DNA of 32,815 nt from a virus: the IMG/VR virus record IMGVR_UViG_3300022752_000241, positions 1 to 32,815 of that record; one strand, given 5' to 3'. This document shows, piece after piece, positions 7,794 through 10,409 of the stretch (its first letter is position 1; each line of letters begins with the position of its first letter). The notes under the pieces were generated by a model. The model did no database searches, was not told where the DNA came from, and worked only from the letters and a program-made list of their open reading frames with translations. The translations under genes and the position numbers were made by a program.

Positions 7794-8209
7794 GAGGTTT
7801 CTTCGGTCTCAGACCACACAGTTTCCAGTTCATTAAGTCGACCTAGAAGTACGGACATTGCTGTCTCCTTGGCGTTCTCTACATAACCGATATCCTGATA
7901 GATGTCTTTAATGACTAATTTATAAGCGTCAGTTAGTTTGCTCACTATTACCACCTCCTCTTCTTTTAGTTTTAGAGTTGGGCAATAATCTACCTTTTTA
8001 CTTTGATTCATAAGGATATCGCCGTTGGAGTGGTAAGTTCTGTTGATTATTAGTTCGTGCATCCAAGTCGAGTCACTAACCATATTTGATATGTGTTCAT
8101 TACACACAGAGCAGATAGCAAAGAAAGAGCCATCTTTACGATAACCCTCTCTAATATCTTTTGGAGTAAATGATAAGCCTTGTGGCTCAGTAGTCTTTTC
8201 GTCATTCAT
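7784..8209 (-). CDS. Hypothetical protein with one CxxC
   Basis: 141 residues. The N-terminal half has AICSVCNEHISNMV, a CxxC followed by a possible His ligand, and a later single Cys (DYCPTL), so a small zinc site is possible. The C-terminal half is helical and acidic. AAGG lies seven bases before the ATG. The family was not recognised. The gene ends inside the 23-bp repeat that precedes the next promoter. Confidence 0.5.
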   Translation of the reverse strand: MNDEKTTEPQGLSFTPKDIREGYRKDGSFFAICSVCNEHISNMVSDSTWMHELIINRTYHSNGDILMNQSKKVDYCPTLKLKEEEVVIVSKLTDAYKLVIKDIYQDIGYVENAKETAMSVLLGRLNELETVWSETEETSAV

Positions 8210-8246
8210 ATTTCAACCTTAGCAAACTTCTTTATAGAAGTCAAGT

Positions 8247-8600
8247 TTATTTGGAGTCTGTTTCTTTCTGCTTTAGTTCCTTTAAAACCTTTTTCTTGGC
8301 TTTATATTCTTTAACCATATGTTGGTCAGTTTTATTCCTGCTATGGACAGTCTTTACCATTTCAAGTCTGCAACTTCTAAAGCACTCAAATTTATTGTTG
8401 CCACCCCAGACGTCCACCCATTCCTTACCTTTTTCAGTTTTTACATACTTTACAAAGCGGTAGCGACCAGACCAACCAGCAATCTTTAGTTCAGTTCCTT
8501 GCTTTACGTGTCGCCCATTGATTTGCATCTCTGTGACTATTTCCCATTGTGCATCAGGTCTAACTGACTCAGGCACATCTATTTTCTTTTTCTTACCCAT
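8247..8600 (-). CDS. Hypothetical basic protein
   Basis: 117 residues from the ATG at 8600; an in-frame ATG at 8651 would add 17 residues but lies upstream of an excellent promoter. The product starts with GKKKKIDVPE, has a probable small beta domain (TELKIAGWSGRYRFVKYV, then WVDVWGG, then two close cysteines) and ends in a lysine-rich helix. A nucleic-acid-binding role is possible from the charge; nothing more specific is visible. Confidence 0.55.
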   Translation of the reverse strand: MGKKKKIDVPESVRPDAQWEIVTEMQINGRHVKQGTELKIAGWSGRYRFVKYVKTEKGKEWVDVWGGNNKFECFRSCRLEMVKTVHSRNKTDQHMVKEYKAKKKVLKELKQKETDSK

Positions 8601-8606
8601 AATTCC

Positions 8607-8635
8607 ATTATACCTATTCGTGTGGTATTTGTCTA
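8607..8635 (-). promoter_or_regulatory. Leaderless promoter TAGACA-17-TATAAT
   Basis: On the minus strand TAGACA (8635-8630), a 17-bp spacer and a perfect TATAAT (8612-8607) end six bases before the ATG at 8600. The transcript should therefore begin at the start codon. This decides the start of the gene. Confidence 0.7.
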
Positions 8636-8664
8636 CTACTTTATAGCACATTTTTTAGGTAAGT

Positions 8665-8698
8665 AAAAACCCCCTACAACAATGAAGCGTAGGGGGTT
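8665..8698 (-). terminator. Intrinsic terminator of the ncRNA
   Basis: CCCCCTAC and GTAGGGGG form an 8-bp stem around an 11-nt loop. On the minus strand it is followed by TTTTT, so it ends transcripts coming from higher coordinates; the plus side lacks a T run. Confidence 0.8.
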
Positions 8699-8927
8699 AG
8701 TATGAATAGGTGGATTTCGTTTTACCACCAACGCATAGCCACCAGGTTCTCTAGCGATTATCTGCGTACCTGCCGTTGAGTTTTCCACTCGGTTGATTAG
8801 ACCCGACAGTGCCTTCTCCCTGTTGGCACAGAGATTCAGCCATATTCCGACTGACTTGCAATTCAGCCGTTTGTGAATTGTCGGGACTTGAACCCGATGT
8901 TTGCCTGACCAAACAATTCTCCCTTGA

Positions 8928-8984
8928 CTATCCAGCCAAGAATTCTTCAGCACTATCTAGTGCCTTAGAAATATTGTATTTCAT
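8928..8984 (-). CDS. 18-residue peptide inside the ncRNA
   Basis: MKYNISKALDSAEEFLAG follows an AGGA five bases before its ATG. It looks like an amphipathic helix rather than random sequence. It may make the ncRNA a dual-function or attenuator-type RNA, or be chance. Confidence is low. Confidence 0.3.
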   Translation of the reverse strand: MKYNISKALDSAEEFLAG

Positions 8985-9161
8985 ATTTCCTAACTTGTCA
9001 AATCCAATTGTGAGTTGGCTCGCTGTTTGTTTCAACTACTTGGATATAGAGTCTGATTCATTCAATAATATTCTTGAACTTCACATCGTCGCACTTTTTG
9101 TTACCTCACAAAACTAGGGAGTGCCCTAACCGTTTTGGCAATTTAACTTGCTAGTAAAAAG

Positions 9162-9190
9162 ATAATACAAAACTATTTTATTTTTGTCAA
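9162..9190 (-). promoter_or_regulatory. Sigma70-type promoter TTGACA-17-TATTAT
   Basis: On the minus strand TTGACA (9190-9185), exactly 17 bases, and TATTAT (9167-9162). The predicted start is the A at 9155. It is the best promoter in the window and drives the ncRNA. Confidence 0.8.
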
Positions 9191-9200
9191 CTATTATTTG

Positions 9201-9271
9201 TGGACTGTGTAGATTTGCACTACCGACTACTACCTACCGAATCGACTCGTAGCCTATGGCTACGCCAGTCC
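9201..9271 (-). ncRNA. Cloverleaf-like RNA element A
   Basis: The 71-nt segment is closed by GGACTG/CAGTCC plus a terminal A. Inside are GTAGCC-ATA-GGCTAC, a weaker CGATT/AGTCG stem, and a T-like arm GTAG-TGCAAAT-CTAC. The topology is that of a tRNA, but the first arm lacks a D-loop, no seven-base anticodon loop is present, and the T-like loop has G at the second position. Confidence 0.5.
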
Positions 9272-9329
9272 TTGGAGATTCCGTTGCCTAGGACGGGTAG
9301 ACCGCTTTACGCTCCTTTGTCTACAAGCG

Positions 9330-9412
9330 TGGACTGCGAGGAATCGCACCTCGGAAACTCCATACGGAGCACCTCTCGCTACTTTATCCATGGTAGTCAA
9401 GTAGCACAGTCC
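9330..9412 (-). ncRNA. Cloverleaf-like RNA element B
   Basis: An 83-nt segment with the same GGACTG/CAGTCCA closing helix as A and C. Arm one is a perfect 7-bp GCTACTT/AAGTAGC stem, arm two GCTCC-GTAT-GGAGT, and arm three CGAGG-TGCGATT-CCTCG. It begins six bases after the stop of the membrane-protein gene at 9419-9664. Between B and A (9272-9329) are further small inverted repeats (GTAGAC/GTCTAC). Confidence 0.5.
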
Positions 9413-9418
9413 TAAAGT

Positions 9419-9664
9419 TTATTTAGTCTTTCTCTTAGAGATGGCAATACCTAAATCAAAAAGACCTAGAGTAATAGCAATTGGCAAAAGTGGCAAACTA
9501 TAAAAAGCAACAAACATCATAACCCTCGCAGCATCACTAACTGCTGCGTGAGAGTTGACATTGAAACCTGCTAAAACATAGACTGTGCTAATTGCTAGTA
9601 GTGGAATTAGTCCTAAAACAATTCCAGTCTTGCGTAATACTTTTTGTACTTTATCTTTATTCAT
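9419..9664 (-). CDS. Two-helix membrane protein
   Basis: 81 residues: a basic N-terminus, a hydrophobic helix at about residues 14-33, a short polar loop, a second helix at about 46-72, and a basic tail (KRKTK). A weak purine-rich AGAGAAAG precedes the ATG. It sits between RNA elements C (upstream) and B (downstream), 33 and 6 bp away, so it is probably on the same transcript. No family was recognised; holin-like or superinfection-exclusion roles are only possibilities. Confidence 0.5.
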   Translation of the reverse strand: MNKDKVQKVLRKTGIVLGLIPLLAISTVYVLAGFNVNSHAAVSDAARVMMFVAFYSLPLLPIAITLGLFDLGIAISKRKTK

Positions 9665-9697
9665 CTATTTTTCTTTCTCTATTATTTGGTTGTTGCG

Positions 9698-9761
9698 TGG
9701 ACTGTGTAGATTTGCACTACCAACTTCGAGAGTTGACTTTAGCCCAAGGGCTAACCAGTCC
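9698..9761 (-). ncRNA. Cloverleaf-like RNA element C
   Basis: 64 nt closed by GGACTG/CAGTCC plus A. Arm one is TTAGCC-CTTG-GGCTAA, arm two TCAAC-TCTCGAA-GTTGG, and arm three GTAG-TGCAAAT-CTAC. The last 23 nt equal those of element A, while arm one differs in sequence but keeps full pairing. It is too short and lacks a D-loop for a normal tRNA. Confidence 0.5.
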
Positions 9762-9815
9762 TGAAACTAAGAACCCTAATGTCAAAGCAATAGGGGGAAT
9801 CCTACTCTCAGTTTC
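9762..9815 (-). ncRNA. Cloverleaf-like RNA element D
   Basis: 54 nt closed by a 7-bp helix GAAACTG/TAGTTTC followed by A, abutting element C with no gap, as in processed RNA arrays. Inside are GTAGG/CCTAT or the alternative CCCTA/TAGGG. Between it and the tmRNA (9816-9878) are further hairpins: CCTAG/CTAGG, GAGGT/ACCTC and CCCC/GGGG. Confidence 0.4.
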
Positions 9816-9878
9816 TAAACGCCTAGCCTTGCGACTAGGGTGAGGTACGAGACCTCAATGCCCCTAACGGGGTCATCG

Positions 9879-10230
9879 TGGAGATGAGGGGAGTCGAACC
9901 CCTGTCCTGAAAGGTTTATATGTTCTTCTACACGCTTAGGCAGTTTGCTTTGTGTTCCCGATGGTTGACCTGCCAGACATCGAGTCAGATTCAATTACGG
10001 TTTGAATCGTTACCGCACTGCTAGTTGTTCTCTTTATTTAAAACCTAGATGCCCAGCGAGAACTACTGCTTTTCTAGGGGCAAATGCGAACGCAACCTAA
10101 CTAAAGATTACGCAGCAAGAGCGAATGCGGAACGAGATTCAGCATTTATTGTTTTAGCGGATTCAAGAGAGACCGCCATCTCTGCGTGCTTCACCATACT
10201 AAAGTCTCCCAGTCGAAACCAGGCATCCCC
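9879..10230 (-). ncRNA. ssrA: tmRNA (transfer-messenger RNA)
   Basis: The 352-nt RNA has the tmRNA hallmarks. The 5' end GGGGATG pairs with CATCTCC at the 3' end, with the G3-U70 wobble recognised by alanyl-tRNA synthetase. The D-like region contains TGGTTTCGACTGG, and the T-arm is AGGGG-TTCGACT-CCCCT. The tag reading frame ends in ALAA and a TAA at 10110-10108. With the resume codon GCT at 10143 the tag is AESRSAFALAA; an earlier GCT at 10158 would give AKTINAESRSAFALAA. CCA is not encoded after the discriminator A. The RNA would rescue stalled ribosomes with host SmpB and tag products for ClpXP-type proteolysis. A promoter lies at 10291-10263. Confidence 0.92.
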
Positions 10231-10262
10231 TTGGTGTTGCTTCACTATTTAGTTGTATAGAT

Positions 10263-10291
10263 ATGTTAGCACACTTAGTCTTTTTTTACAA
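10263..10291 (-). promoter_or_regulatory. Candidate tmRNA promoter TTGTAA-17-TAACAT
   Basis: On the minus strand TTGTAA (10291-10286), 17 bases, TAACAT (10268-10263); predicted start about 10256, leaving about 26 nt of 5' leader to be trimmed from the tmRNA. It overlaps the 3' end of the small basic protein gene. Confidence 0.5.
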
Positions 10292-10409
10292 CTAAGCGAC
10301 GCTTTTCTTTGTCAAAAATCTTAGGGCGTTTCTTACTAGCCTTGCCATTTTGTCTGCCAGAACTTTTTACTTCTGGTGCTGGCTTTGCACCACCCTTGTT
10401 CTTTGCCAT
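10275..10409 (-). CDS. 44-residue lysine/arginine-rich protein
   Basis: The frame begins MAKNKGGAKPAPEV and ends EKRRLVVKKD, with about one third Lys/Arg. AGGAG lies six bases before the ATG, which supports translation. It could bind nucleic acid, for example as a small RNA- or DNA-packing protein; that is inferred from charge alone. It lies directly upstream of the tmRNA and its last codons contain the candidate tmRNA promoter. Confidence 0.6.
   Translation of the reverse strand: MAKNKGGAKPAPEVKSSGRQNGKASKKRPKIFDKEKRRLVVKKD

Follow-up and report, generated by a model that had tools for sequence, protein, structure and literature searches.

In our study, the minus strand of a viral DNA stretch of 32,815 bases (hereafter the window) was found to contain a putative stand-alone phage RNA gene of about 490 nt, which runs from a sigma70-type promoter to an intrinsic terminator and whose 3' third is, as judged from its match to the family model, a divergent manA RNA (RF01745). 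Sequence comparison suggests that manA probably acts in trans as an independent phage RNA, which accompanies tRNA arrays and is released as a separate molecule, the window carrying a long variant of it. The window comes from a virus of actinobacteria living in fresh water, and among its genes a WhiB protein (PF02467, E 9.7e-13, Pfam search) was found; the WhiB family is typical for actinobacteria and their phages. The only standard RNA gene called in the window was a tmRNA (10230-9876, minus strand); no ordinary tRNA was called anywhere in it by ARAGORN or Rfam. The features of the RNA gene and of the gene that follows it are given in Table 1.

Table 1. Positions of the features of the RNA gene and of the following gene in the window.
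Feature	Position	Strand	Basis or remark
Promoter TTGACA-17-TATTAT	9162..9190	-	11/12 consensus match; predicted start near 9155
5' region, about 235 nt	8921..9155	-	kept in five contigs; no Rfam match
Internal promoter-like site TTGACA-17-TACAAT	8973..9001	-	11/12
Hairpin CTTGGCTGGATAGTCAAG	8940-8923	-	part of the 5' region
D-armless tRNA-like element	8874..8919	-	structure pair counts, fold
Acceptor-like 6-bp helix (GAATTG/CAATTC)	8919-8914/8880-8875	-	within the tRNA-like element
Short hairpin of the tRNA-like element	8913-8910/8903-8900	-	
T-arm of the tRNA-like element	8897-8881	-	TCGGG-TTCAAGT-CCCGA
Discriminator-like A	8874	-	end of the tRNA-like element
Linker CAAAC	8869..8873	-	resembles CAAACA-like linkers behind tRNAs preceding manA in relatives
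manA RNA domain (RF01745)	8699..8868	-	model 1-192 of 192, 51.4 bits, E 8.6e-12
Intrinsic terminator CCCCCTAC-11-GTAGGGGG-TTTTT	8665..8696	-	stem, 11-nt loop, five T
Promoter TAGACA-17-TATAAT of the next gene, outside the RNA	8607..8635	-	11/12
Next gene, DUF7246 (PF23904)	start likely ATG at 8600	-	Pfam; homologues match from residue 21

The first-pass annotation had proposed an independent structured non-coding RNA gene with its own promoter and terminator, a hairpin-dense interior and no solid protein gene, and all of these points were supported. The TTGACA of the promoter was invariant when the window was aligned with three homologues, and a fifth copy (G033) contained TTGACA followed by TACTAT at 17 nt (by eye). 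The promoter and terminator scans used here and below report consensus matches. Three promoter sites of at least 11/12 were found on both strands of positions 8000-9999, where 300 dinucleotide shuffles gave 0.043 on average, and four in the whole window; the three were the RNA gene's own, one within the RNA and one of the next gene. The TTGACA of the internal site was present also in G004 and absent in G001 and G003 (alignment); this predicted site could yield a shorter transcript with the tRNA-like element and manA. The terminator with its T run, lying about 490 bp after the promoter, was missed in the first terminator scan because of the loop limit of 8 in that scan, and was detected at the manA end by a second, purpose-made scan. 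The 488 nt folded with -147 kcal/mol against -122.1 (sd 6.0) in 100 shuffles, none of which was as good (z -4.12). Two ORFs overlapped the RNA gene, one of 105 aa (8636-8953, minus strand) and one of 102 aa (8809-9117, plus strand), and neither had a Pfam match. No reading frame was conserved, as the corresponding stretches in four homologues hit stops or changed frame, and a protein gene was therefore ruled out.

The manA domain was found in a permissive Rfam scan over positions 8500-10300. The match covered the full length of the model, yet its 51.4 bits lay below the curated gathering cut-off of 55.2. The manA copies of G004 (62.3), G003 (64.9) and G001 (59.1), which were found via relatives of the protein neighbouring the RNA of the window, scored over this cut-off, and that of G033 was undetected by Rfam and was placed by eye. 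In the alignment of 33 actinophage-type manA sequences including the window, compensatory changes were found at 20 of the 31 predicted pairs. The window copy was gapped in one internal region of this alignment, part of one helix region being missing, and diverged more than most copies. It shared with the manA family the full-length model match, the end hairpin GGTGGTAAAA..TCCACC, the closing helix and the phage setting. The family is filed as cis-regulatory, whereas the window copy has its own promoter and terminator, and the RF01745 model does not contain the tRNA-like element and the 5' region which precede manA in the window.

Membership in GOLLD (RF01998) or ROOL, which had been raised before, found no support, as the Rfam search of positions 8500-10300 gave neither family up to E 5. 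The suggestion of a new class failed for the 3' third, which is a known RNA, and held for the 5' region and the D-armless tRNA-like element, which have no Rfam family. GOLLD and ROOL are described in the text of PMC12286853 as phage RNAs near tRNA islands that form RNA cages, and GOLLD was reported there to be ribosome-bound in pull-downs. The RNA of the window resembles them as a structured phage RNA near tRNA islands with unassigned function, but it is much shorter and has no sequence match to them; the cages are described for those two and the ribosome binding for GOLLD.

Directly 5' of manA, the window, G004, G001, G003 and G033 contained a common tRNA-like element with a T-loop beginning TTCRA. 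The T-arm look-alike noticed in the first-pass annotation was thus found together with an acceptor-like helix and was backed by compensatory change, and the comparative folding that had been advised revealed such changes in both the tRNA-like element and the manA domain. In the five homologues, 98.6% of 73 cells were paired and 5 pairs were changed on both sides; 9 cells were changed on both sides, whereas shuffles gave 3.3 and slid controls 0-1. The five sequences represent about three lineages, so that the compensatory support is modest in number, though clear in the T-stem. The acceptor-like helix was stacked on the T-arm and both were kept by compensatory change, and by structure alone the element was therefore tRNA-like. 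As a cloverleaf it was not called a tRNA by ARAGORN or Rfam on 8919-8874, where three helices only were found. With tRNA genes that have degenerate parts and with the tRNA-like domain of tmRNA it shared the acceptor-like helix and a T-arm with a canonical-looking T-loop, whereas it was devoid of a D-arm and contained a 6-nt hairpin loop in place of the 7-nt anticodon loop.

Other pairings were rejected. The automatic scan chose an upstream TGGATAG as the acceptor strand for the window, G004, G001 and G033; the local acceptor-like helix was preferred because the TGGATAG version keeps a mismatch, has no compensation and is absent in G003. The possibility that the 5' region is tmRNA-like, with an acceptor strand at its 5' end, was likewise rejected because the local helix covaries (by eye). 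The mutually exclusive helix CAATTCA/TGAATTG (8880-8874 with 8866-8860) that had been pointed out earlier did not survive, as none of the four homologues is able to form it (by eye); a riboswitch-like alternation of helices was rejected, since the second helix is confined to the window.

The 5' region and its promoter were confined to the same five contigs when a profile of the five copies was compared with the survey loci, the sole other rows being L085/L132 at E 0.2. Some compensatory pairs were found in its predicted, provisional fold. Homology between this region and the RNA-like segments before the tRNA-like elements in G056, G041 and others was not found. G033 and G001 had nearly identical 5' regions, and in G033 this region was combined with another type of manA, which resembled that of G014; this suggests that two modules meet where the tRNA-like element borders on manA.

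These observations bear on three other readings. The whole 490 nt might be a single composite RNA, the tRNA-like part of which docks on a tRNA-binding partner. The promoter, the 5' region and the tRNA-like element stay together in five contigs, and the tRNA-like helices are maintained by compensatory changes despite the lost D-arm, which argues that the element is under selection as a structure. However, G033 pairs the same 5' part with another manA type and manA occurs without a 5' part in most relatives, so that the parts appear to be separable modules; moreover, transcription from the internal promoter could give a manA RNA that lacks most of the 5' region. A composite RNA is on the whole unlikely. 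Only slightly less doubtful is the proposal that manA is a common, non-riboswitch member of a wider class of phage tRNA-array RNAs, fused in this lineage via a retained D-armless tRNA mimic to a further RNA domain, and that this mimic would bring the structured RNA to a tRNA-binding enzyme or the ribosome. The locus might also be decayed: the tRNA ahead of manA in an old array would have degenerated, and the RNA would be functionless in this phage. The missing D-arm, the missing ARAGORN call and the divergence of the window's manA (51.4 bits, with part of one helix region lost) would fit decay, but the compensatory changes in the tRNA-like element, the fold (z -4.12), the conserved promoter and the intact terminator speak against it and make it highly improbable.

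To the window and G033 we added 57 IMG/VR matches and 16 named phage records, which gave 75 manA loci, 60 of the actinophage type and 15 of cyanophages. The manA 3'-hairpin pattern was found in 54 IMG/VR stretches. RF01745 matched 10 of 33 records in the first set (7 over the cut-off) and 48 of 49 in the next set (33 over the cut-off). The named phages comprised 15 taken from 45 records matching the manA consensus, several others of which were duplicate GenBank/RefSeq entries, and Rhodococcus phage Francesca. The G033 locus (L064) was entered by eye, some loci entered through a 25-mer (GGTAGTGCAAATCTACNCNGTCCAC) situated behind tmRNA genes, and L046, a second weak row of G001 (16.3 bits), was left out of the counts as chance. 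The loci were gathered by similarity and sequence patterns and not at random, so that the frequencies given here apply to these loci only. In the bacterial genome collection the 3'-hairpin pattern had no match; a looser pattern had 6 matches, none of which was confirmed by Rfam at E 0.01, and these were taken as chance. No manA was found in plasmids by the DNA similarity search.

Upstream of manA, an ARAGORN tRNA was found within 12 nt in 18 of the 75 loci, ending 3-6 nt before manA with a usually CAAACA-like linker, and a tRNA-like T-arm and acceptor occupied the same slot in 15 more. Among the remaining 42 loci, a promoter of at least 8/12 ended 3-14 nt before manA in 37, a 7/12 site was present in 4, and the contig started 68 nt off in 1 (G052), which was counted with the rest without a promoter; these 68 nt resemble the end of tRNA-Trp, as in G080 (by eye). 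None of the 33 loci with a tRNA or tRNA-like element contained a promoter of at least 8/12 before manA. At random positions of the same loci the promoter scan gave 80/1318, the tRNA-like scan 5/1318 and the terminator scan 127/1318. All 33 loci with a tRNA or tRNA-like element directly upstream were of the actinophage type (33/60), and 22 of the 27 others of this type had a promoter of at least 8/12.

Downstream of manA, the 60 actinophage-type loci contained a tRNA within 80 nt in 35 cases (within 5 nt in 13) and a terminator within 70 nt in 28; one or the other was present in 53, and neither in 7, of which 2 were at a contig end. When near-identical loci were merged into 35 actinophage groups, a tRNA or tRNA-like element was found upstream in 18, a promoter of at least 8/12 in 12 of the 17 others, and a downstream tRNA or terminator in 30. 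In all 75 loci taken together, a tRNA followed manA in 37. The end of manA touched the start of tRNA-Gly in Synechococcus phage S-SSM7, a tRNA began 4 nt after manA in the marine virus AG-345-F15, and in Rhodococcus phage Francesca manA was located 3 nt after tRNA-Met and 1 nt before tRNA-Lys, in a gap that is unannotated in the record. The kinship with structured phage RNAs near tRNA genes, which the first-pass annotation had suspected, was borne out by these flanks. In the cyanophages a promoter of at least 10/12 was present right before manA in 15/15 loci; a tRNA or scanned terminator followed in 3/15 and neither in 12/15, and a T-rich hairpin was seen by eye behind manA in L049 and L050, beyond the 3/15 of the scan.

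In the relatives, manA RNA is thus placed either in a group of tRNA genes or between a start and a stop signal of its own; it therefore probably works as an RNA in its own right and does not act as a switch. Immediately before manA stands a tRNA, a promoter or an unusual tRNA-like element, and behind it mostly a tRNA or a terminator, which points to separate release. Where manA lies among tRNAs, it would be freed by tRNA end-processing, with RNase P acting at the following tRNA and 3' tRNA processing at the preceding one; alternatively, it would be released through its own start and own stop. The degenerate tRNA-like element of the window would likely serve as such a processing signal or be what remains of one. 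The most speculative step is that the mature RNA, which would measure about 170-190 nt, may have a trans-acting role in the infected cell, with the translation apparatus as its most likely target; it would then work alongside the phage tRNAs and tmRNA and would not switch a neighbouring gene. The role in translation is guessed from the company that manA keeps with tRNAs and tmRNA.

A terminator after a structured RNA can serve as the expression platform of a riboswitch. The manA RNA might accordingly be cis-regulatory, perhaps a riboswitch, with its terminator as the platform for the DUF7246 gene of the window. This is the published view: Weinberg et al. 2010 placed manA in presumed 5' UTRs and counted it among the riboswitch candidates (PMC2864571), and the term cis-regulatory is kept in the text of later papers (PMC9964418; PMC10832533). 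It also agrees with the 12 cyanophage loci without a tRNA or terminator behind manA; a protein gene follows 16-130 nt downstream in most of these, and the order of promoter, manA and protein gene is the expected look of a 5' UTR element. However, manA was single-copy in 13/13 named phage records searched whole and lies beside unrelated genes, those of the cyanophages encoding hypothetical proteins, transaldolase, purL and gp32, and tRNAs follow it in about half of the loci. In the window, the DUF7246 gene has its own 11/12 promoter after the terminator of the RNA, and in G001 and G003 it was found more than 13 kb from manA and on the opposite strand, so that it is not tied to manA; the consistent link expected of a 5' UTR element was thus missing. 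The 5' arm of the terminator had no 6-nt partner anywhere in the RNA of the window, and hence no antiterminator is visible. The single copy, the unrelated cyanophage genes, the tRNA neighbours and the promoter and non-linkage of DUF7246 argue together against a switch. A predicted riboswitch of the DUF7246 gene is disfavoured, and the cis-regulatory reading as a whole is quite improbable, though the cyanophage copies could be cis-acting.

The location of manA beside tRNAs in some cases is already published and is not new here. In the Bifidobacterium megaplasmid pMP7017, which contains a tRNA array and a tmRNA, manA RNA was reportedly identified from transcriptome analysis (text of PMC10832533), a point in favour of a separate RNA. 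By this published description, pMP7017 and the window are alike as actinobacterial mobile elements in which a tmRNA and tRNA array adjoin manA, and they differ in that pMP7017 is a plasmid for which the authors retain the riboswitch reading. The claim that manA is an independent non-coding RNA does not appear in the passages searched of PMC2864571, PMC9964418, PMC10832533, PMC7779021, PMC3023696, PMC7657543, PMC12286853 and PMC9569102. Within the literature searched, neither the reading of manA as a separate gene nor the two-fold pattern of its flanks across many phages was found. If manA is a free phage RNA, ligand searches are misdirected, and the family should no longer have the type 'Cis-reg' in Rfam. 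Beside GOLLD and ROOL, manA would then be a further structured RNA of the tRNA arrays of phages, and with 170-190 nt it is far easier than these to make, probe and delete; it is found in culturable phages, namely Prochlorococcus and Synechococcus phages and Rhodococcus phage Francesca. The window variant indicates that degenerate tRNA-like elements can occupy the tRNA slot before manA, which raises the question of tRNA-processing enzymes as makers of other phage RNAs.

Three further tRNA-like elements were observed on the minus strand of the window (9762-9697, 9411-9329 and 9271-9200), with an acceptor-like GGACTG/CAGTCC and a T-loop of TGCAAAT or TGCGATT, in which a G stands in place of U55 of tRNA. 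They were uncalled by ARAGORN or Rfam. Fifteen distinct copies of such TGC-loop elements shared a cloverleaf-like consensus fold. The staphylococcal cell-wall tRNA-Gly is also without the usual T-loop sequence. The 25-mer was present in 20 IMG/VR stretches, often right behind the tmRNA, and had no match in annotated phages. In G065 (L097), a tRNA-like element of the TGC-loop kind with GGACTG/CAGTCC was located right before manA at 2800, and its place in the manA slot links the two sorts of element.

Directly before manA in L088, L072, L123, L105, L131 and L102 (contigs G056, G041, G076, G073, G062 and G070, respectively), tRNA-like elements with a D-arm, T-arm and acceptor were seen by eye; their anticodon arm was short and odd, and they had no ARAGORN call. 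Several of these six contained a conserved hairpin-rich segment of about 130-170 nt between tRNA-Asn or tRNA-Gly and the tRNA-like element, which may be another unlisted RNA of these arrays. In L036, L042, L064, L038 and L041 a conserved stretch, starting AGGCTCTTTACTG, was present about 120-170 nt before the promoter of manA or of the 5' region. This stretch (GGCTCTTTAC..CCACAAGACCAACC..GAGACGAC..GGGAACCTCTGG..CCAAGGTCCAAACTTGG) lies between the tmRNA and manA in those five loci and after manA in L081. In the loci scanned, Rfam gave no match to it at gathering level, and it is possibly another RNA gene. Upstream of manA in cyanophage P-RSM6 (L052, 1031-1083), a Glutamine-II riboswitch match was found, with a score of 33.1 against the cut-off of 33.
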